Shown piece by piece: positions 3,183-40,805 of a DNA stretch of 45,037 nucleotides. The notes beneath the pieces were generated by a model. The model worked only from the letters and a program-made list of their open reading frames with translations, was not told the origin of the DNA and made no database searches. This DNA comes from an uncultured Kiritimatiellota bacterium (GTDB taxonomy: Bacteria; Verrucomicrobiota; Kiritimatiellia; RFP12; DVOR01): NCBI GenBank assembly GCA_944389545.1, contig CALXMT010000020.1, positions 1-45,037 of the forward strand, read 5' to 3'. Position numbers and translations under genes: made by a program. How positions within the stretch are numbered: the stretch's first letter is position 1; each line of letters starts with the position of its first letter.

Positions 3183-5210
3183 ATGCACCTCCTCCGTCCC
3201 CTCCTCGCCACCCTGGCCATCTCCCTCACCCTCCCCCTCTCCGCCGCAACAGAGGAGAAGACGGTTTATAAAGACACTGAGCCCTATGTGGTGCCGGCAG
3301 GAAAAACAAAGAAATTCACAGATCACATATCAAATCCAAGCGATTATGACGTTGAGGGATCCTACTTTTGGTTCCGCCTAGAAGATAATACAAAATTAGT
3401 TTTCGATATGCCGGATGGTTGTCGATACGCGACAGTGTGCATTGAAACCGCCGCCGACCCGGACCATCCAGCCGAGTTACACTTTATTGAGGGATACAAC
3501 CAATTCACCCCTATTATCTTTAAACATGCAGATGATGCCCCGAATGGCACGCTTGTCCTCTACTGTGCAACATGGACCGAAAAGGATGGGCAAGGATACA
3601 ATAACTACTCGGAGCCGATATGGCAACCTGACTCCATTACAGTAGATTGTAATCTCACCTTCATCTCCCCCTTACCAGTCGATGACCAGGGTAACGCCTA
3701 TGTAGGCAAGACCTTCACTATTCCTTCCGGATGCACCTGCCGCCTTGAGACCAAATTCTCGAAGGAAACTCAACTCCCCGAAATTGCCCTCGCCGATGAG
3801 ACCTCCACCCTCGTCTTCGCAGAGCCGACCACAAACACGAATTTAGCTGAGAAGTATTGCGACCTTCTTAAGTCCTCCGCCGGTCGCTTCGTCTTCAAAC
3901 GCAACACAACCATTAATTCCACGCTGACCTTCACGAATAAGCCGACAATTGAGATTGATGGCGTAACACTCCACCTCAAGGAATCTCCCCCACAATTCAC
4001 GGATTGTAACCCCACCTTCGTTATAAGAAATGCGGGGACCTTACGTGCACCACAAGCCAATCTCCAAACTGTGAAAATAGAGGGAGAAGGAACGCTTCGA
4101 AGCATATATAGCCTTGATTGCCTAACCGGAAATGGTACCGCAATCCTTGAAGAAAGCACTGTTTCGAAAAATATGGACATCTGTGCCATTCGTGTGGACT
4201 CTGAGGAAATGCTCAAAATCAATGGAAATTCTTATTGTAAAGTACAGCGCATTGAAGGAAATGGTACAGTATCTTTTATAGGTTATATTGGCGGTTATAA
4301 TTGGAAAGACCTTGACGCGATTCTGCGGGAAAGTAAATTCACAGGCACCTTTGAATCCGAAGTAGCTCGCATTAATCAGAACATCGATTTCACGGAAATC
4401 AAAGAAAACACCTTCAGCTATACCATCATGCCTCATATACCGTCAAGGCTCGCGGTCGGATTTCAGATTGTGATTAAAATGCGACTTGAACAATATGTTA
4501 ATCTTGTGATTAAGTGGCCGCCAATAGGCCATCTCCCTCATGTTACCCTTAAACTCATTGAATCCGGCCCCTTTCAAGGCCAAGCGATAGTACCGGCCTT
4601 TTCGAAGGAGCTTGAAGAGTTCATCTTCGAAAGTGCAGCTGGTTCCCCGATTGATTGTAAAGTCGAATACGGCGAAGAGACAAACACCTTAACCTGGATG
4701 CCGATAACGCCCGGGTTCGTGGGATTGCCGGACGATGTGAACCAAATGTTGGCTCCGGACATCCCGGAAGGCGCAATCACCGGGAAGGTCATCTGCAAAC
4801 ACACCGTGGAAGAGGCCACAGAAGCGTTACGAACCTTCTCCGGAATCCACAAAGTCGTTTCACGCACGGATGGTACGACCGCAACGAACACCGTTGACCT
4901 GCACGTGGACTACTCCTTCGGCATTTCGCGCCTGACCTTTGTCGATGGCGGCAAGAATATTCTGGTCGAAGTCTCACTCACCTCCGATGCCACCTCCACT
5001 CCCACCTTCCTGGGCGACTTAACGCTCTTCGTCAACAATGAAGCCTTGAAAGAGGACACCGAACTCTTCTCCGATGAGGGAACCGACAAGTACGGCCTTA
5101 TTGCGCCTACAGGAAAAACAGTTCGTTGGTTTGTAGTCCCTTATGAAACACTTCCGAAATCCGGAGACGTCACCATCTCCGTCACCGCTGAGCCGCCACA
5201 GGCGAACTAA
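3183..5210 (+). CDS. Secreted protein of unknown function
   Basis: A 675-residue protein with a clear Sec signal peptide (MHLLRPLLATLAISLTLPLSA, probable cleavage after SAA or nearby). The mature part is rich in beta-strand-like segments, Thr, Asn and acidic residues, with no enzyme motif I recognise. It looks like a surface or secreted adhesin-like protein. No membrane anchor or C-terminal sorting signal is evident. The open frame extends upstream to 3003 inside gyrB, but the signal peptide fixes the start at ATG 3183. No promoter is visible between the gyrB terminator and this start. Base use changes sharply: the signal peptide has C-ending codons like the neighbours, whereas from about 3250 the codons are AT-rich and mixed, as if a foreign passenger were joined to a local signal peptide. 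Confidence 0.75.
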   Translation: MHLLRPLLATLAISLTLPLSAATEEKTVYKDTEPYVVPAGKTKKFTDHISNPSDYDVEGSYFWFRLEDNTKLVFDMPDGCRYATVCIETAADPDHPAELHFIEGYNQFTPIIFKHADDAPNGTLVLYCATWTEKDGQGYNNYSEPIWQPDSITVDCNLTFISPLPVDDQGNAYVGKTFTIPSGCTCRLETKFSKETQLPEIALADETSTLVFAEPTTNTNLAEKYCDLLKSSAGRFVFKRNTTINSTLTFTNKPTIEIDGVTLHLKESPPQFTDCNPTFVIRNAGTLRAPQANLQTVKIEGEGTLRSIYSLDCLTGNGTAILEESTVSKNMDICAIRVDSEEMLKINGNSYCKVQRIEGNGTVSFIGYIGGYNWKDLDAILRESKFTGTFESEVARINQNIDFTEIKENTFSYTIMPHIPSRLAVGFQIVIKMRLEQYVNLVIKWPPIGHLPHVTLKLIESGPFQGQAIVPAFSKELEEFIFESAAGSPIDCKVEYGEETNTLTWMPITPGFVGLPDDVNQMLAPDIPEGAITGKVICKHTVEEATEALRTFSGIHKVVSRTDGTTATNTVDLHVDYSFGISRLTFVDGGKNILVEVSLTSDATSTPTFLGDLTLFVNNEALKEDTELFSDEGTDKYGLIAPTGKTVRWFVVPYETLPKSGDVTISVTAEPPQAN

Positions 5211-5236
5211 AACGCCTCCCTTTTACCCCCTCTCGT

Positions 5237-5283
5237 GAGACCCTATAGTGGTTGACCGCCGACCCCTATAGGGTCTCGCCAAG
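5237..5283. repeat. Palindromic 22-23 nt repeat pair (CTATAG-centred)
   Basis: Two adjacent units begin with GACC: 5239-5260 (GACCCTATAGTGGTTGACC...) and 5261-5283 (GACCCCTATAGGGTCTCGCC...). Together they form a perfect 12-bp inverted repeat GAGACCCTATAG (5237-5248) / CTATAGGGTCTC (5266-5277). The same units recur in an array at 33381-33471. A separate perfect palindrome, CCTTATATATAAGG, lies at 5320-5333. Confidence 0.8.
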
Positions 5284-13503: not shown

Positions 13504-13846
13504 ATATTGCCCTGGGAAGTTTTCCACGAAGACACGAAGGAACGCAAGGGCCTGGGCACTTCACCGTTCGGCCCTCCGGGCCTCACTACCGTGCCCATCC
13601 CTTGCGTTTCTAGCGTTTTCGTAGGAAGCCTCACTGGCCGTGTAGAGAAACGCAGATTTCGCAGATTCGGGCAGATTTTTGGCGTGCTAGCGCACGCTGA
13701 ACAAGGAGCACTGACACACCCCGGACAACAGAGAGCGGAGCGTGCAGGCGCAACGCGCCGAACGGTCGCGTATCGTTTTCCAATCAGCCAATCAGCGAAT
13801 CAGCCAATCAGCCGGGCGCTCTTCGAGAGCGCCCATGGGAGGGGGG
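13504..13846. repeat. Repeat mosaic upstream of the nucleotidyltransferase
   Basis: No gene is seen. Module order: an A-type core (13504-13610) running in the same direction as the copy at 16409; an ATTTCGCAGATTC-type module with a GCGTGCTAGCGCACGC hairpin (about 13650-13698); a GAGAGCGGAG tract with a truncated copy of the hairpin unit (13741-13765); and a tandem of CAATCAGC-like 8-9 mers (13779-13813) that recurs at 40731-40766. Confidence 0.7.
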
Positions 13847-14889: not shown

Positions 14890-15280
14890 GTCTCCACGAA
14901 AACACGAAGGAACGCAAGGGCCTGGGCACAAGGGGCGCTGTTGCGCCCCAGAGAACGGAGAACAGAGAACGGAGAACGGAACGCCCCTGCGGGGCGACAG
15001 GCGAAGTCGTAAACAAGGTTGCCCACCTAGTGGTCCTAATCGCCCTAGTAGTTCTATCGCGTCATGTTATGGCACGTCGCAGACGTGCCTGCGGGTGCAG
15101 GGGGTGTTTCCCCCTGCCGGGGTGTGGGGCGGCGCCCCACACCTACCAATCCATCAAATATCCTTTGTGCCCTTTGTGTCCGTTGTGATTCCCAAAACAA
15201 ACTGGCAGTCCTTCTCTGTGTTCCTCTGTTTTCCTCTGTTCCCCTCTGTGTCTACAAAACTTCCCCGGACACTATTGAGA
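14890..15280. repeat. Repeat mosaic (A core, purine tract, D module)
   Basis: No gene is seen. In order: the start of an A core (14893-14931) joined directly to a purine-tract module (GGGGCGC hairpin, AGAGAACGGAGAACAG tract, GCCCCTGCGGGGC, to about 15010); an intact D module (15071-15212, beginning GGCACGTCGCAGACGTGCC and ending CTGGCAGTCC); a TCCTCTGTT-type pyrimidine stretch; and a reversed element end TTCCCCGGACACTATTG at 15261-15277. Confidence 0.7.
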
Positions 15281-18689: not shown

Positions 18690-19931
18690 ATGGCAATGGT
18701 TTTGGATGACCTCAAAGGCATGGTTGCCGGCACGTGCGTTTCCGGCGGCCTCGACTCGCGCACCATCGCGAAGGTGATGATGGAAGCCGGCGTGAAGGTG
18801 ATCGGCTTCACCGGCGGCATCGGCCAGCCCGATGAAAAGGACATCAACGATGTGGCCAAGCGCATGGCGCCCACCGGCATCGAGACCGTCATCGTCGACC
18901 TGCGCAACGAAATGGCCGACGCGTGCATCGAGGCCATCAAGTGCCAGGCGATGTACGACGGCGGCTACTGGAACTCCACCGGCATCGGCCGCGCCGTCAC
19001 CATCAAGGGCCTCATCCCCGAGATGAAGAAGCGCGGCGTCCAGGTCCTCGTCCACGGCGCCACCGGCCGCGGCAACGACCAGATGCGCATCGAGCGCTAC
19101 ACCAACGTCTTCGCCCCCGAGATGAAGGTCTACTCCCCCTGGCGCGACGCCGGCCTCCTCAAGAAGTTCCCCGGCCGCACCCAGATGGTCGACTACCTCG
19201 CCCAGTTCGGCATCGTCGCCTTCGCCGGCGGCAAGAAGAAATACTCCACCGACGCCAACATGGCCGGCCTCTCCCACGAAGCCGAGGACCTCGAGAGCAT
19301 GGAGACCTCCATGACCATCGTCGAGCCCACCATGGGCGTCTGGCCCTGGCAGGCCCCCGACAAGCCCGAGCAGATCACCATCCGCTTCTCCAAGGGCCGT
19401 CCCGTCCAGATCAACGGCAAGGACGTCACCCCCCTCGAAGCCATGATGCTCGCCAACGAAATCGGCGGCCGCAACGGCATCGGCATGAAGCACGCCCTCG
19501 AAAACCGCATCATCGGTACCAAGAGCCGCGGCGTTTACGAGGCCCCCGGCATGGAGCTCCTCGGCTCCGCCATCCGCTACGTCTACCAGGCCACGATGGA
19601 CCGCCGCGCCACCCTCTTCTTCCTGCAGCTCTCCAAGCTCATCTCCGACCAGATCTACGACGGCCGCTACTACGACCCCACCACCGTCGCCGCCCGCAAC
19701 GCGGTCGACACCCTCGCGCAGTACGCCGACGGCACCGTCAAGTTGAGCCTCTACAAGGGCAACATCCTCTTCGACGCCCTCACCGACTGCCCCCACACCA
19801 TCTACAACGAAGCCGACTCCTCCATGGAGGCCTCCGACGGCGTCAACCCCGTCTCCTCCCAAGGCTTCGCCGAGATCCAGTCCGTCGAGGCCCGCATGCT
19901 CGCCCTCTCCGGCCAAATCGCCGGCAAGTGA
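18690..19931 (+). CDS. argG: Argininosuccinate synthase
   Basis: ATP-dependent joining of citrulline and aspartate in arginine synthesis, cytoplasmic. 413 aa. The PP-loop reads VSGGLDSRT near the N-terminus (the usual family form is YSGGLDTS). HGATGRGNDQMRIE is the conserved HGxTGKGNDQxR block, followed by SPWRD and a long C-terminal tetramerisation part. ATG 18690 is nine bases after GGAG; a TTG six bases upstream and an ATG six bases downstream are possible alternatives. Strong terminator at 19949-19983. Confidence 0.93.
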   Translation: MAMVLDDLKGMVAGTCVSGGLDSRTIAKVMMEAGVKVIGFTGGIGQPDEKDINDVAKRMAPTGIETVIVDLRNEMADACIEAIKCQAMYDGGYWNSTGIGRAVTIKGLIPEMKKRGVQVLVHGATGRGNDQMRIERYTNVFAPEMKVYSPWRDAGLLKKFPGRTQMVDYLAQFGIVAFAGGKKKYSTDANMAGLSHEAEDLESMETSMTIVEPTMGVWPWQAPDKPEQITIRFSKGRPVQINGKDVTPLEAMMLANEIGGRNGIGMKHALENRIIGTKSRGVYEAPGMELLGSAIRYVYQATMDRRATLFFLQLSKLISDQIYDGRYYDPTTVAARNAVDTLAQYADGTVKLSLYKGNILFDALTDCPHTIYNEADSSMEASDGVNPVSSQGFAEIQSVEARMLALSGQIAGK

Positions 19932-25576: not shown

Positions 25577-25846
25577 GGGCGGCGTTGCCGCCCCAGAGAA
25601 CAGAAAACAGAGAACGGAGAACAGAAACGCCCCTACGGGGCGACGGGCGAAGCCGGAACCAAACTTCCAATTACGCATCCTGCGTATTCCTTCGTGGTTC
25701 TTCGTGCTTCCTCATGTCAGTTCCGCAAGGCAAGCTTTCCACACTTTCCCACTACTTCGCCCGTCGCGCGCTTGCCGCGCGTTCTGTTCTCTGTTCTCCG
25801 TTCTCTGTTCTCTATGCTTCGGGGCGCGTCAGCGCCCCGAAGAATG
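25577..25846. repeat. Inverted pair of purine-tract modules between tsaD and the MFS gene
   Basis: 25577-25664 reads GGGGCGGC hairpin, AGAGAACAGAAAACAGAG tract, ACGCCCCTACGGGGCGACG, GGGCGAAG. 25757-25840 is the same module reversed: TTCGCCCGTCGCGCGC, GTTCTGTTCTCTGTTCTC tract, GGGGCGC GTCA GCGCCCC hairpin. The second hairpin contains the stop codon of the MFS gene (25829-25831). The middle is AT-richer with no recognisable feature. Confidence 0.7.
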
Positions 25847-32960: not shown

Positions 32961-32980
32961 TCACGCCTCCTTCCCCACCC

Positions 32981-33345
32981 AGTAGTGTCCGGGGAAGTTT
33001 TACCGCGAAGACGGTCTTGCGTGGAAACCCTGCAGGCTCCATCGCTCCCGTTGGTCGCGCCGCCCTTGGGATTTCCACGCTATCGCGCCCTTGAAGGGGC
33101 GCTCAATGGAAAATTGGGAAGTTTAGAGGCTTGGAAGTTTTCTTTTCTTGAAGGGTCGTTGCTCCACACCTAGACTTCTCTTCTTTAGAAAAGGCTACAA
33201 GTCTTTAGAAAAGGCACAAGGCGCGAAACGGAGGGCGGCGGGCGCGGTCAGCGGCGAAGCCGCAGAGCGCCCGATGGAGCCCGAGGCGGTTCGCGCCCAC
33301 TGTTGCGTCTTTGCGATTCTCATTTTCCTCGGACACTATTGTTCC
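32981..33345. repeat. TIR-bounded element with mixed cores
   Basis: Bounded by AGTAGTGTCCGGGGAA (32981-32996) and TTCCTCGGACACTATTG (33325-33341). Inside: a C module (GGAAACCCTGCAGGCTCCATC, GGGATTTCCACGCTATCGCGC), part of which recurs reversed at 44921-44947; a reversed AAGCCTCCAAACTTCCA tract (about 33110-33145); a short CTTTAGAAAAGGC direct repeat (33184-33215); and a reversed B core (about 33212-33300). No gene is seen. Confidence 0.7.
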
Positions 33346-33380
33346 CCACCCATTTTCCGCCCCCATAAGGTCCCTTTCTG

Positions 33381-33471
33381 GACCCCTAAGGGTTTCGCCC
33401 CCGATCCCTATAGGGTCTCACCCTCGACCACTATAGTGGTTGACCTCGGACCCCTATAGGGTCTCGCGGAA
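33381..33471. repeat. Tandem array of 23-nt CTATAG palindromes
   Basis: Four contiguous units at a 22-23 nt period start at 33381, 33403, 33426 and 33449. Their centres are CCCCTAAGGG, CCCTATAGGG, CCACTATAGTGG and CCCCTATAGGG. Most units begin GACC and the spacer carries TCTC or GACC. Units three and four are near-identical to the pair at 5239-5283. A weaker unit (CCCATAAGGTCCC) may precede at about 33362. Confidence 0.8.
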
Positions 33472-33524
33472 GGCCTTTTAGAGGCACCTCAAAGAGGGTG
33501 GGAAAGGTAGACGTTTGGCCGCAG

Positions 33525-33606
33525 ATTCATCCGTCGCGCGCTTGCCGCGCGTTCTGTTCTCCGTTCTCCGTTTTCCGTTCTCCGGGGCGGCGCTAGCCGC
33601 CCCCTC
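33525..33606. repeat. Purine-tract module, reversed
   Basis: CCGTCGCGCGCTTGCCGCGC, then GTTCTGTTCTCCGTTCTCC tract and the GGGGCGGCGCTAGCCGCCCC hairpin. It has the same order as the modules at 25757 and 29958 but without an inserted hairpin unit. Confidence 0.75.
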
Positions 33607-40375: not shown

Positions 40376-40805
40376 AGTAGTGTCCGGAGAAATCGGAAAG
40401 TCTCCTTTTCCCGCAAAAGCGCCAATACGCGCGAAGCCAGATGAACTAACACCAATGGTGTCCGGGGAAGTTTCCACGAAAACACGAAGGGAGGGGCGCT
40501 AGCGCGCCCGGTGTTAGCGCCTCACCTTTCCTGCAAGATTTACGTCTTTGCGGTTCCCATTCTGGCAGTCCTTGTGCCCTTTGTGGTTCTTTGTGCCCTT
40601 TGTGGTAGCCGCACAGCGTGAGTCCGTATCCAAACTTCCATGCCTCCAAACTTCCTCATCCCCTTTTGGCGCAGGAAAGTGGGGCGCGGGAGTACAGCGT
40701 GTGAAAGAGGGTGGGGCAACGCCCCACACATCCAATCAGCCAATTCAGCTAATCAACCAATCAGCAGGCGCTCCGTCAGAGCGCCTACGTTCTCGCGGTT
40801 CTCTA
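40376..40805. repeat. Repeat mosaic between the two glycan operons
   Basis: No gene is seen. It starts with an element end AGTAGTGTCCGGAGAA (40376-40391) and the left part of the J core. That core is interrupted at 40453 by a second element end (CAATGGTGTCCGGGGAA) plus an A-type start and a GGGGCGCTAGCGCGCCC hairpin, then resumes (GGTGTTAGCGCC, CTTTCCTGCAAGATTTACG) to about 40560. Fragments follow: CTGGCAGTCC of the D module, AAACTTCC-type tracts, GGCGCAGGAAAGTGGGGCG (also at 20453), and a CAATCAGC tandem (40731-40766). Confidence 0.7.

Follow-up and report, generated by a model that had tools for sequence, protein, structure and literature searches.

Dispersed palindromic repeats are common. 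In the lambda OR and OL operators, tandem 17–18 bp dyad sites lie ~23–24 bp apart centre to centre, separated by short linkers, an arrangement that suits cooperative dimers; plasmid iterons are direct repeats that form one cluster per replicon at the replication origin. REP, BIME and REPIN elements are tagged by GTAG or CGTC (PMC3733652, PMC3116915), and GTAG repeats have been reported in Verrucomicrobia (PMC3733652). Mycobacteriophage stoperators are asymmetric sites for a monomeric repressor in phage genomes (PMC9283540).

The arrays described here were found in a 45,037-nucleotide stretch of DNA (the window) from an uncultured Kiritimatiellota bacterium. Like REP, BIME and REPIN elements they are short intergenic palindromic repeats of high copy number, often clustered and near gene ends, but they comprise about four units at a fixed 22–23 bp pitch, and their dyads lack base-pair covariation. 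The lambda operators share with them tandem dyads, a similar site size and spacing, and short linkers; here, however, there are ~100 chromosomal copies with no single promoter and no adjacent repressor gene, and the sequences are unrelated. Tandem units of ~20–22 bp that bind, or here would bind, protein are common to these arrays and plasmid iterons, but iterons are direct repeats in a single origin cluster and the present arrays are dispersed dyads. With stoperators (PMC9283540) they would share the use of many dispersed binding sites for one transcription-stopping protein, but the present sites are arrayed dyads on a bacterial chromosome. We regard lambda-type operators and stoperators as functional analogues and not as relatives. 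In the open literature searched, no paper was found on a phased repeat of about four operator-like dyads whose linkers are random, whose pitch is fixed and whose letters differ from species to species.

A preliminary description of the window had proposed a four-unit array at 33381–33471 and a two-unit copy at 5239–5283, and both were confirmed (Table 1). It had described an array of CTATAG palindromes; three cores of the larger array are indeed CTATAG, but that of unit 1 (CCCCTAAGGG, 22 bp long) is not, and the elements reach beyond the coordinates given there, to ~24 bp past the outer cores, the distance at which conservation among 30 canonical copies reaches background. Successive cores are spaced by 22, 23 and 23 bp, and TRF detects the array with a period of 23, 3.7 copies and a score of 91. 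Unit 3 is the counterpart of the canonical element's best-conserved unit (CTATAGTGGTTGACC), a sequence present in 39 of 71 sampled arrays. A glycosyltransferase gene comes after this array. The smaller array starts 27 bp past the stop codon of a plus-strand gene ending at 5210; its two units were thought near-identical to those of the larger array and do carry CTATAG cores at the 23-bp spacing, but the first, at 5239, is CCCTATAGTGG, with a dyad broken at ±4. The window matched no curated Rfam model, and a tRNA search of it was negative.

Table 1. Positions of the arrays, their units and other short tandem repeats in the window.
Feature	Position	Strand	Details
Whole element: four near-palindromic units in tandem, outer ends degenerate	33358..33490	+	CCCATAAGGTCCCTTTCTGGACC ... 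GGGTCTCGCGGAAGGCCTTTTAGAGG
Unit 1, GACCCCTAAGGGTTTCGC	33381..33398	+	odd core CTAAG 33386-33390; next core at 22 bp
Unit 2, CGATCC-CTATAG-GGTCTC	33402..33419	+	core 33408-33413
Unit 3, CGACCA-CTATAG-TGGTTG	33425..33442	+	core 33431-33436
Unit 4, GGACCC-CTATAG-GGTCTC	33448..33465	+	core 33454-33459
Second array, two units, ends GAGACC ... GGTCTC	5235..5280	+	cores CTATAG 5243 and 5266, 23 bp apart
Short 7-8 bp tandem repeats	13780-13813, 40732-40765, 33556-33584, 14951-14980, 25594-25625, 25783-25813		intergenic

Other repeats lie nearby. A dispersed repeat of ~370 bp with inverted ends (AGTGTCCGGGGAAGTTTT ... TTTTCCTCGGACACT; 32966–33350) directly adjoins the large array and has 93 partial or full matches across 33 of 41 sampled stretches of the same genome, and tandem repeats of 7–8 bp (CCAATCAG, GTTCTCC/GAGAACG, CAGAGAA/TCTGTTC) recur in gene gaps of the window. 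In these genomes the DNA between genes is a patchwork of several such repeat families, which are swapped between sister species.

The window makes up contig C20 of a genome of 2.53 Mb (G000). The gyrB of this genome lies nearest to those of uncultured Kiritimatiellaeota gut genomes and of Candidatus Spyradenecus faecavium. The genome-wide count that the preliminary description had proposed as a check gave 145 occurrences of CTATAG-N17-CTATAG, compared with 0 for the reversed-pattern control; with a spacer of 15–19 bp the counts were 146 and 0, and for CCCTATAGGG they were 66 and 2. All but one of the 146 CTATAG pairs within 21–25 bp sit at 22–24 bp, nearly all at 23. The window arrays are thus members of a dispersed family that is far above chance, and the freely varying period that would have spoken against the earlier proposal was not seen, the pitch being strict at 22–23 bp.

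The family is patchy. Its CTATAG pairs number 295 in the sister genome G010, 52 in G012 and 5 in G009, and the family is absent or nearly so from several congeners. Within the order, arrays are confined to a few genomes, the remaining matches being scattered or without arms. Among 387 genomes sampled across the phylum, five have three in-phase cores; four of these five belong to this genus, and the fifth (G097), from another family, has one array, with the dyad TTG-CTATAG-CAA. Other congeners use other letters. G001 carries GAAACC-CTTAAG/CTTAG-GGTTT at 22 bp, mostly as four units, in >100 places, and G008 has 44-bp double units. Many G001 arrays are followed at one end by a conserved AAATAAGTCCTTATGCATTTC stretch, often with a GC-rich hairpin (GGGCCGCC..AGCGGCCC; e.g., L178:1554 and L187:1883), which suggests that these end sequences are part of a larger element. 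Further 22–23 bp palindromic tandem arrays of other sequences are present in G005 (L210:1-54), G011 (L090:8487-8548) and G009 (L213:15713-15803 and 19443-19521), a hint that the architecture is wider than CTATAG in this group.

Stretches totalling ~1.4 Mb were read from G000 and G010; of 71 arrays sampled, none lies within a gene predicted by a simple home-made hexamer caller. The consensus of the 30 canonical copies is CCCctAAaGGgcccTttgcGGACCCTTAAGGGTTTCGaCcCgGACCACTATAGGGTCTCgcCCCCGACCACTATAGTGGTTGACCTCGGACCACTATAGGGTCTCAgaaaGgcCCCTTaaGGgg. Copies at unrelated loci have a mean pairwise identity of 81% over 105 bp inside the element (95% for the best pair) and 26% in the flanks; the dispersed arrays are thus discrete elements of ~130 bp with random flanks. 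Their units alternate GACC-(7 or 8)-GGTC-(8 or 7), which holds the core-to-core spacing at 23, and the cores of the outermost units are CTTAAG, CTAAG or CTTTAG-like. The ends form degenerate terminal inverted repeats with the consensus CCCCTAAAGG...CTTT...GGACC / GGTCTCAGAAAG...CCCCTT.

The dispersal of the family in discrete copies is consistent with a mobile or copy-spread element. Gene-free dispersed copies of ~130 bp with degenerate terminal inverted repeats are also what is seen in MITEs, the features of which are partly present here; the interior, however, is wholly made of phased palindromes, and neither a target duplication nor a parent transposase was found. The main rival to the operator-like reading given below is a purely selfish, MITE-like or REP-like repeat without host function, in which the units would be recognition sites for a transposase, perhaps lost or unrecognised, and would be symmetric only through copying. 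The identity of copies at unrelated loci, their terminal repeats, their patchiness among congeners and their strictly intergenic placement all argue for it, as does the distribution over gap types in G000 (15 arrays convergent, 12 tandem, 0 divergent, by the same gene caller). The sister genomes, moreover, differ in the presence of arrays while being ~90–97% identical in most shared stretches. Yet no target-site duplication was seen, no associated transposase was found, and the ~1.4-Mb sample contains no gene with an isolated element end beside it. Copying alone also leaves unexplained how invariant sites can stand beside random 5-bp linkers within one array (see below), and simple copying does not account for an almost constant number of four units. 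We consider a purely selfish repeat possible, though on balance unlikely.

A place among the REP/RAYT systems (REPtrons) was considered and set aside. The RAYT domain (Y1_Tnp, PF01797) was not found in G000, G010 or G012, a result that also counts against the selfish-repeat explanation, and the same search matched five of 14 control genomes. The GTAG or CGTC tag is absent from the window units and from the G000/G010 consensus. A CCGTAG arm does occur in one type of G012 unit (type B), in a genome without RAYT.

Comparison of G000 with G010 showed turnover of whole arrays and of units. In six compared orthologous intergenic regions, arrays are present in both genomes, sometimes with different unit numbers: the window array at 5239 has two units in G000 and four at the orthologous G010 locus (L016). 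Unit number also differs at L112/L119, with five units versus one. Among five G010 array sites that lack a full array in G000, one retains a single core and the others hold different repeats; orthologous sites without arrays hold unrelated repeats, with no clean empty site among them. Such rapid turnover also fits selfish repeats. Differences in unit number are what slippage of an ordinary minisatellite, with no selection on the dyad, would produce, but that explanation predicts free variation in pitch, which was not seen, and is at odds with hundreds of dispersed copies of the same pitch and similar unit number, with random linkers between invariant sites, and with dyads kept across lineages in different letters. 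It is disfavoured and scarcely credible. It is also very improbable that the arrays are substrates of a site-specific recombinase, with CTATAG as the strand-exchange core between short arms. Such an enzyme would suit the conserved symmetric core, the arms that differ by lineage, the changes in unit number and the wholesale replacement of intergenic DNA between sisters, but the arms are only ~6 bp, no recombinase gene lies near the arrays examined, and no cassette-like genes lie between arrays.

Substitutions within orthologous arrays are unevenly distributed. In four alignable pairs, and conditioned on the cores being recognisable in G000, changes were counted at 2/126 core, 15/240 arm, 15/97 linker and 37/476 flank positions; cores change slowest and linkers fastest.

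A similar partition is seen in G012, the most informative of the genomes, which has 17 arrays, nearly all of four units, built from two unit types: type A, CTATAG-GGTRRY-N5-RYYACC, and type B, CTATAG-CCCAAG-N5-CTACGG. Alignment of 25 units of each type gave 12 to 18 near-invariant positions per unit. The core and arms are near-invariant, except that the outer arms of type A are R/Y-degenerate, and the ~5 linker positions carry roughly 0–0.6 bits, apart from one edge position of 1.2 in type B. Inward-facing GACC half-sites flank the arrays in a second phase of 22 bp, at −11, −33, −55 and −77 from the outer core in 16, 20, 13 and 7 of 34 ends. The four-unit arrays of this genome lie centrally in larger dispersed repeats of ~325–360 bp (e.g., L172:3894-4218 and L166:3870-4227), which carry 22-bp-phased GACC/GGTC half-sites on both sides; several are near contig ends.

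The preliminary description had taken differences between units to be symmetric, as if the dyad were being maintained. This holds only between lineages, where the dyad is kept with changed letters (ACC-CTATAG-GGT and CGG-CTATAG-CCC in G012, TTG-CTATAG-CAA in G097, AAACC-CTTAAG-GGTTT in G001). Within G000 and G010, the majority of units depart a little from symmetry (GAGACC-CTATAG-TGGTC and its reverse). The letters to the left and right of CTATAG are C/T in 30 units, A/G in 20, C/G in 13 and A/T in 9, so that symmetric pairs (C/G and A/T) at ±4 account for 22 of 72, rarer than the ~35 expected from the marginals. Placement of successive sites on one face of the helix, also proposed there, does not follow from the spacing: 23 bp is 2.19 turns at 10.5 bp/turn, or a rotation of ~70° per site, and the 22–23 bp pitch as a whole implies rotations of ~35–70°. 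Same-face placement is therefore doubtful and would need unusual geometry.

Arrays often lie 27–300 bp downstream of stop codons and in convergent gaps, where transcribed hairpins might stabilise the 3′ ends of mRNAs or terminate transcription in both directions, in the manner of the BIME/REP hairpins at gene ends. Their predicted RNA folds are more stable than those of shuffled sequences (z −3.2 to −9.2), but good folding is expected of any palindrome array. In the degenerate arms of G012, no Watson-Crick or wobble covariation was detected across the core, the linker or the whole array (P 0.13–0.54; 8 to 9 type A arrays), and the element ends of G000 and G010 match no better than shuffled pairs, including end pairs picked by eye (TTTCTG/CAGAAA, TCCGCG/CGCGGA). 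Given this lack of covariation, pairing in RNA or in a cruciform does not seem to account for the symmetry, despite the strong predicted folds. Some arrays (L056, L118), moreover, lie beyond intrinsic-terminator-like hairpins with T runs, and gaps called divergent hold 8 of 37 G010 arrays (by the same simple caller) and several in G012. A transcribed RNA element is thus an improbable explanation.

The strict pitch, free linkers, slowly changing cores and lack of covariation suit instead a DNA-binding protein on the dyad sites, probably as cooperating dimers. Tandem dyad sites at a fixed pitch with unconstrained linkers are what a cooperative operator array would be expected to contain, and they are present here; of the roles first suggested, a protein-binding array is still the best reading; a segregation site is not supported, since ~100 dispersed copies do not suit a single centromere-like site. 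We infer, with a probability of about one half, that the element evolves fast, spreads by copying and is an operator-like array to which a putative protein binds cooperatively. Each array would consist of consecutive operator-like sites, every one of them an imperfect dyad of ~18 bp with ACC or GACC half-sites around a short core (CTATAG in G000). Adjacent sites, 22–23 bp apart, would be occupied by a sequence-specific protein, in all probability dimeric. The array would move as a discrete ~130-bp element copied into intergenic DNA, and once bound might serve in local silencing or insulation at gene ends, as a roadblock there, in nucleoid organisation or in a transposition complex. An operator array and a mobile element are compatible, in that a miniature element may carry the former or may have given rise to it.

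No candidate binding protein was found among the array neighbours inspected in G009 and G097: genes beside the single CTATAG array of G009 are pseudopilin-like as read by eye, and those in G097 are uracil-DNA glycosylase-like and glutamine-synthetase-like. Nor was a shared function evident among the neighbouring genes looked at. Phage relatives were not recognised either. A pattern of three CTATAG at 23 bp has matches in seven IMG/VR contigs; none of the seven resembles these elements, and five form one family with flanks that lack arm dyads. In a family of viral contigs (IMG/VR loci L135, L137, L138, L139, L140), a conserved but unrelated tandem region of CTATAG (CTATAGGGGTTCTTATAGTTAAC... 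ATCACTTCTGGGCAGAT) lies close to AT-rich DNA and may be an origin.

Arms and cores vary by species and even by type within G012, and pitch, unit number and dyad stay constant, giving species-specific sequences on one architecture. Since the arms differ in this way, one conserved protein cannot be assumed. A broader proposal, which we advance tentatively and think rather unlikely, is a lineage-restricted chromosomal system in which a putative DNA-binding protein and its genus-wide set of ~20 to >100 four-site arrays per genome co-evolve rapidly, the arrays acting as dispersed silencers, insulators or nucleoid anchors. Were the arrays only a selfish repeat, they would represent a new internal architecture for miniature elements without RAYT. 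If the operator-like reading is true, joint change in a DNA-binding protein and its sites across the genome would be recorded in nature by these arrays, and they might also reveal a nucleoid or transcription-barrier system in a little-studied gut branch of the Verrucomicrobiota.
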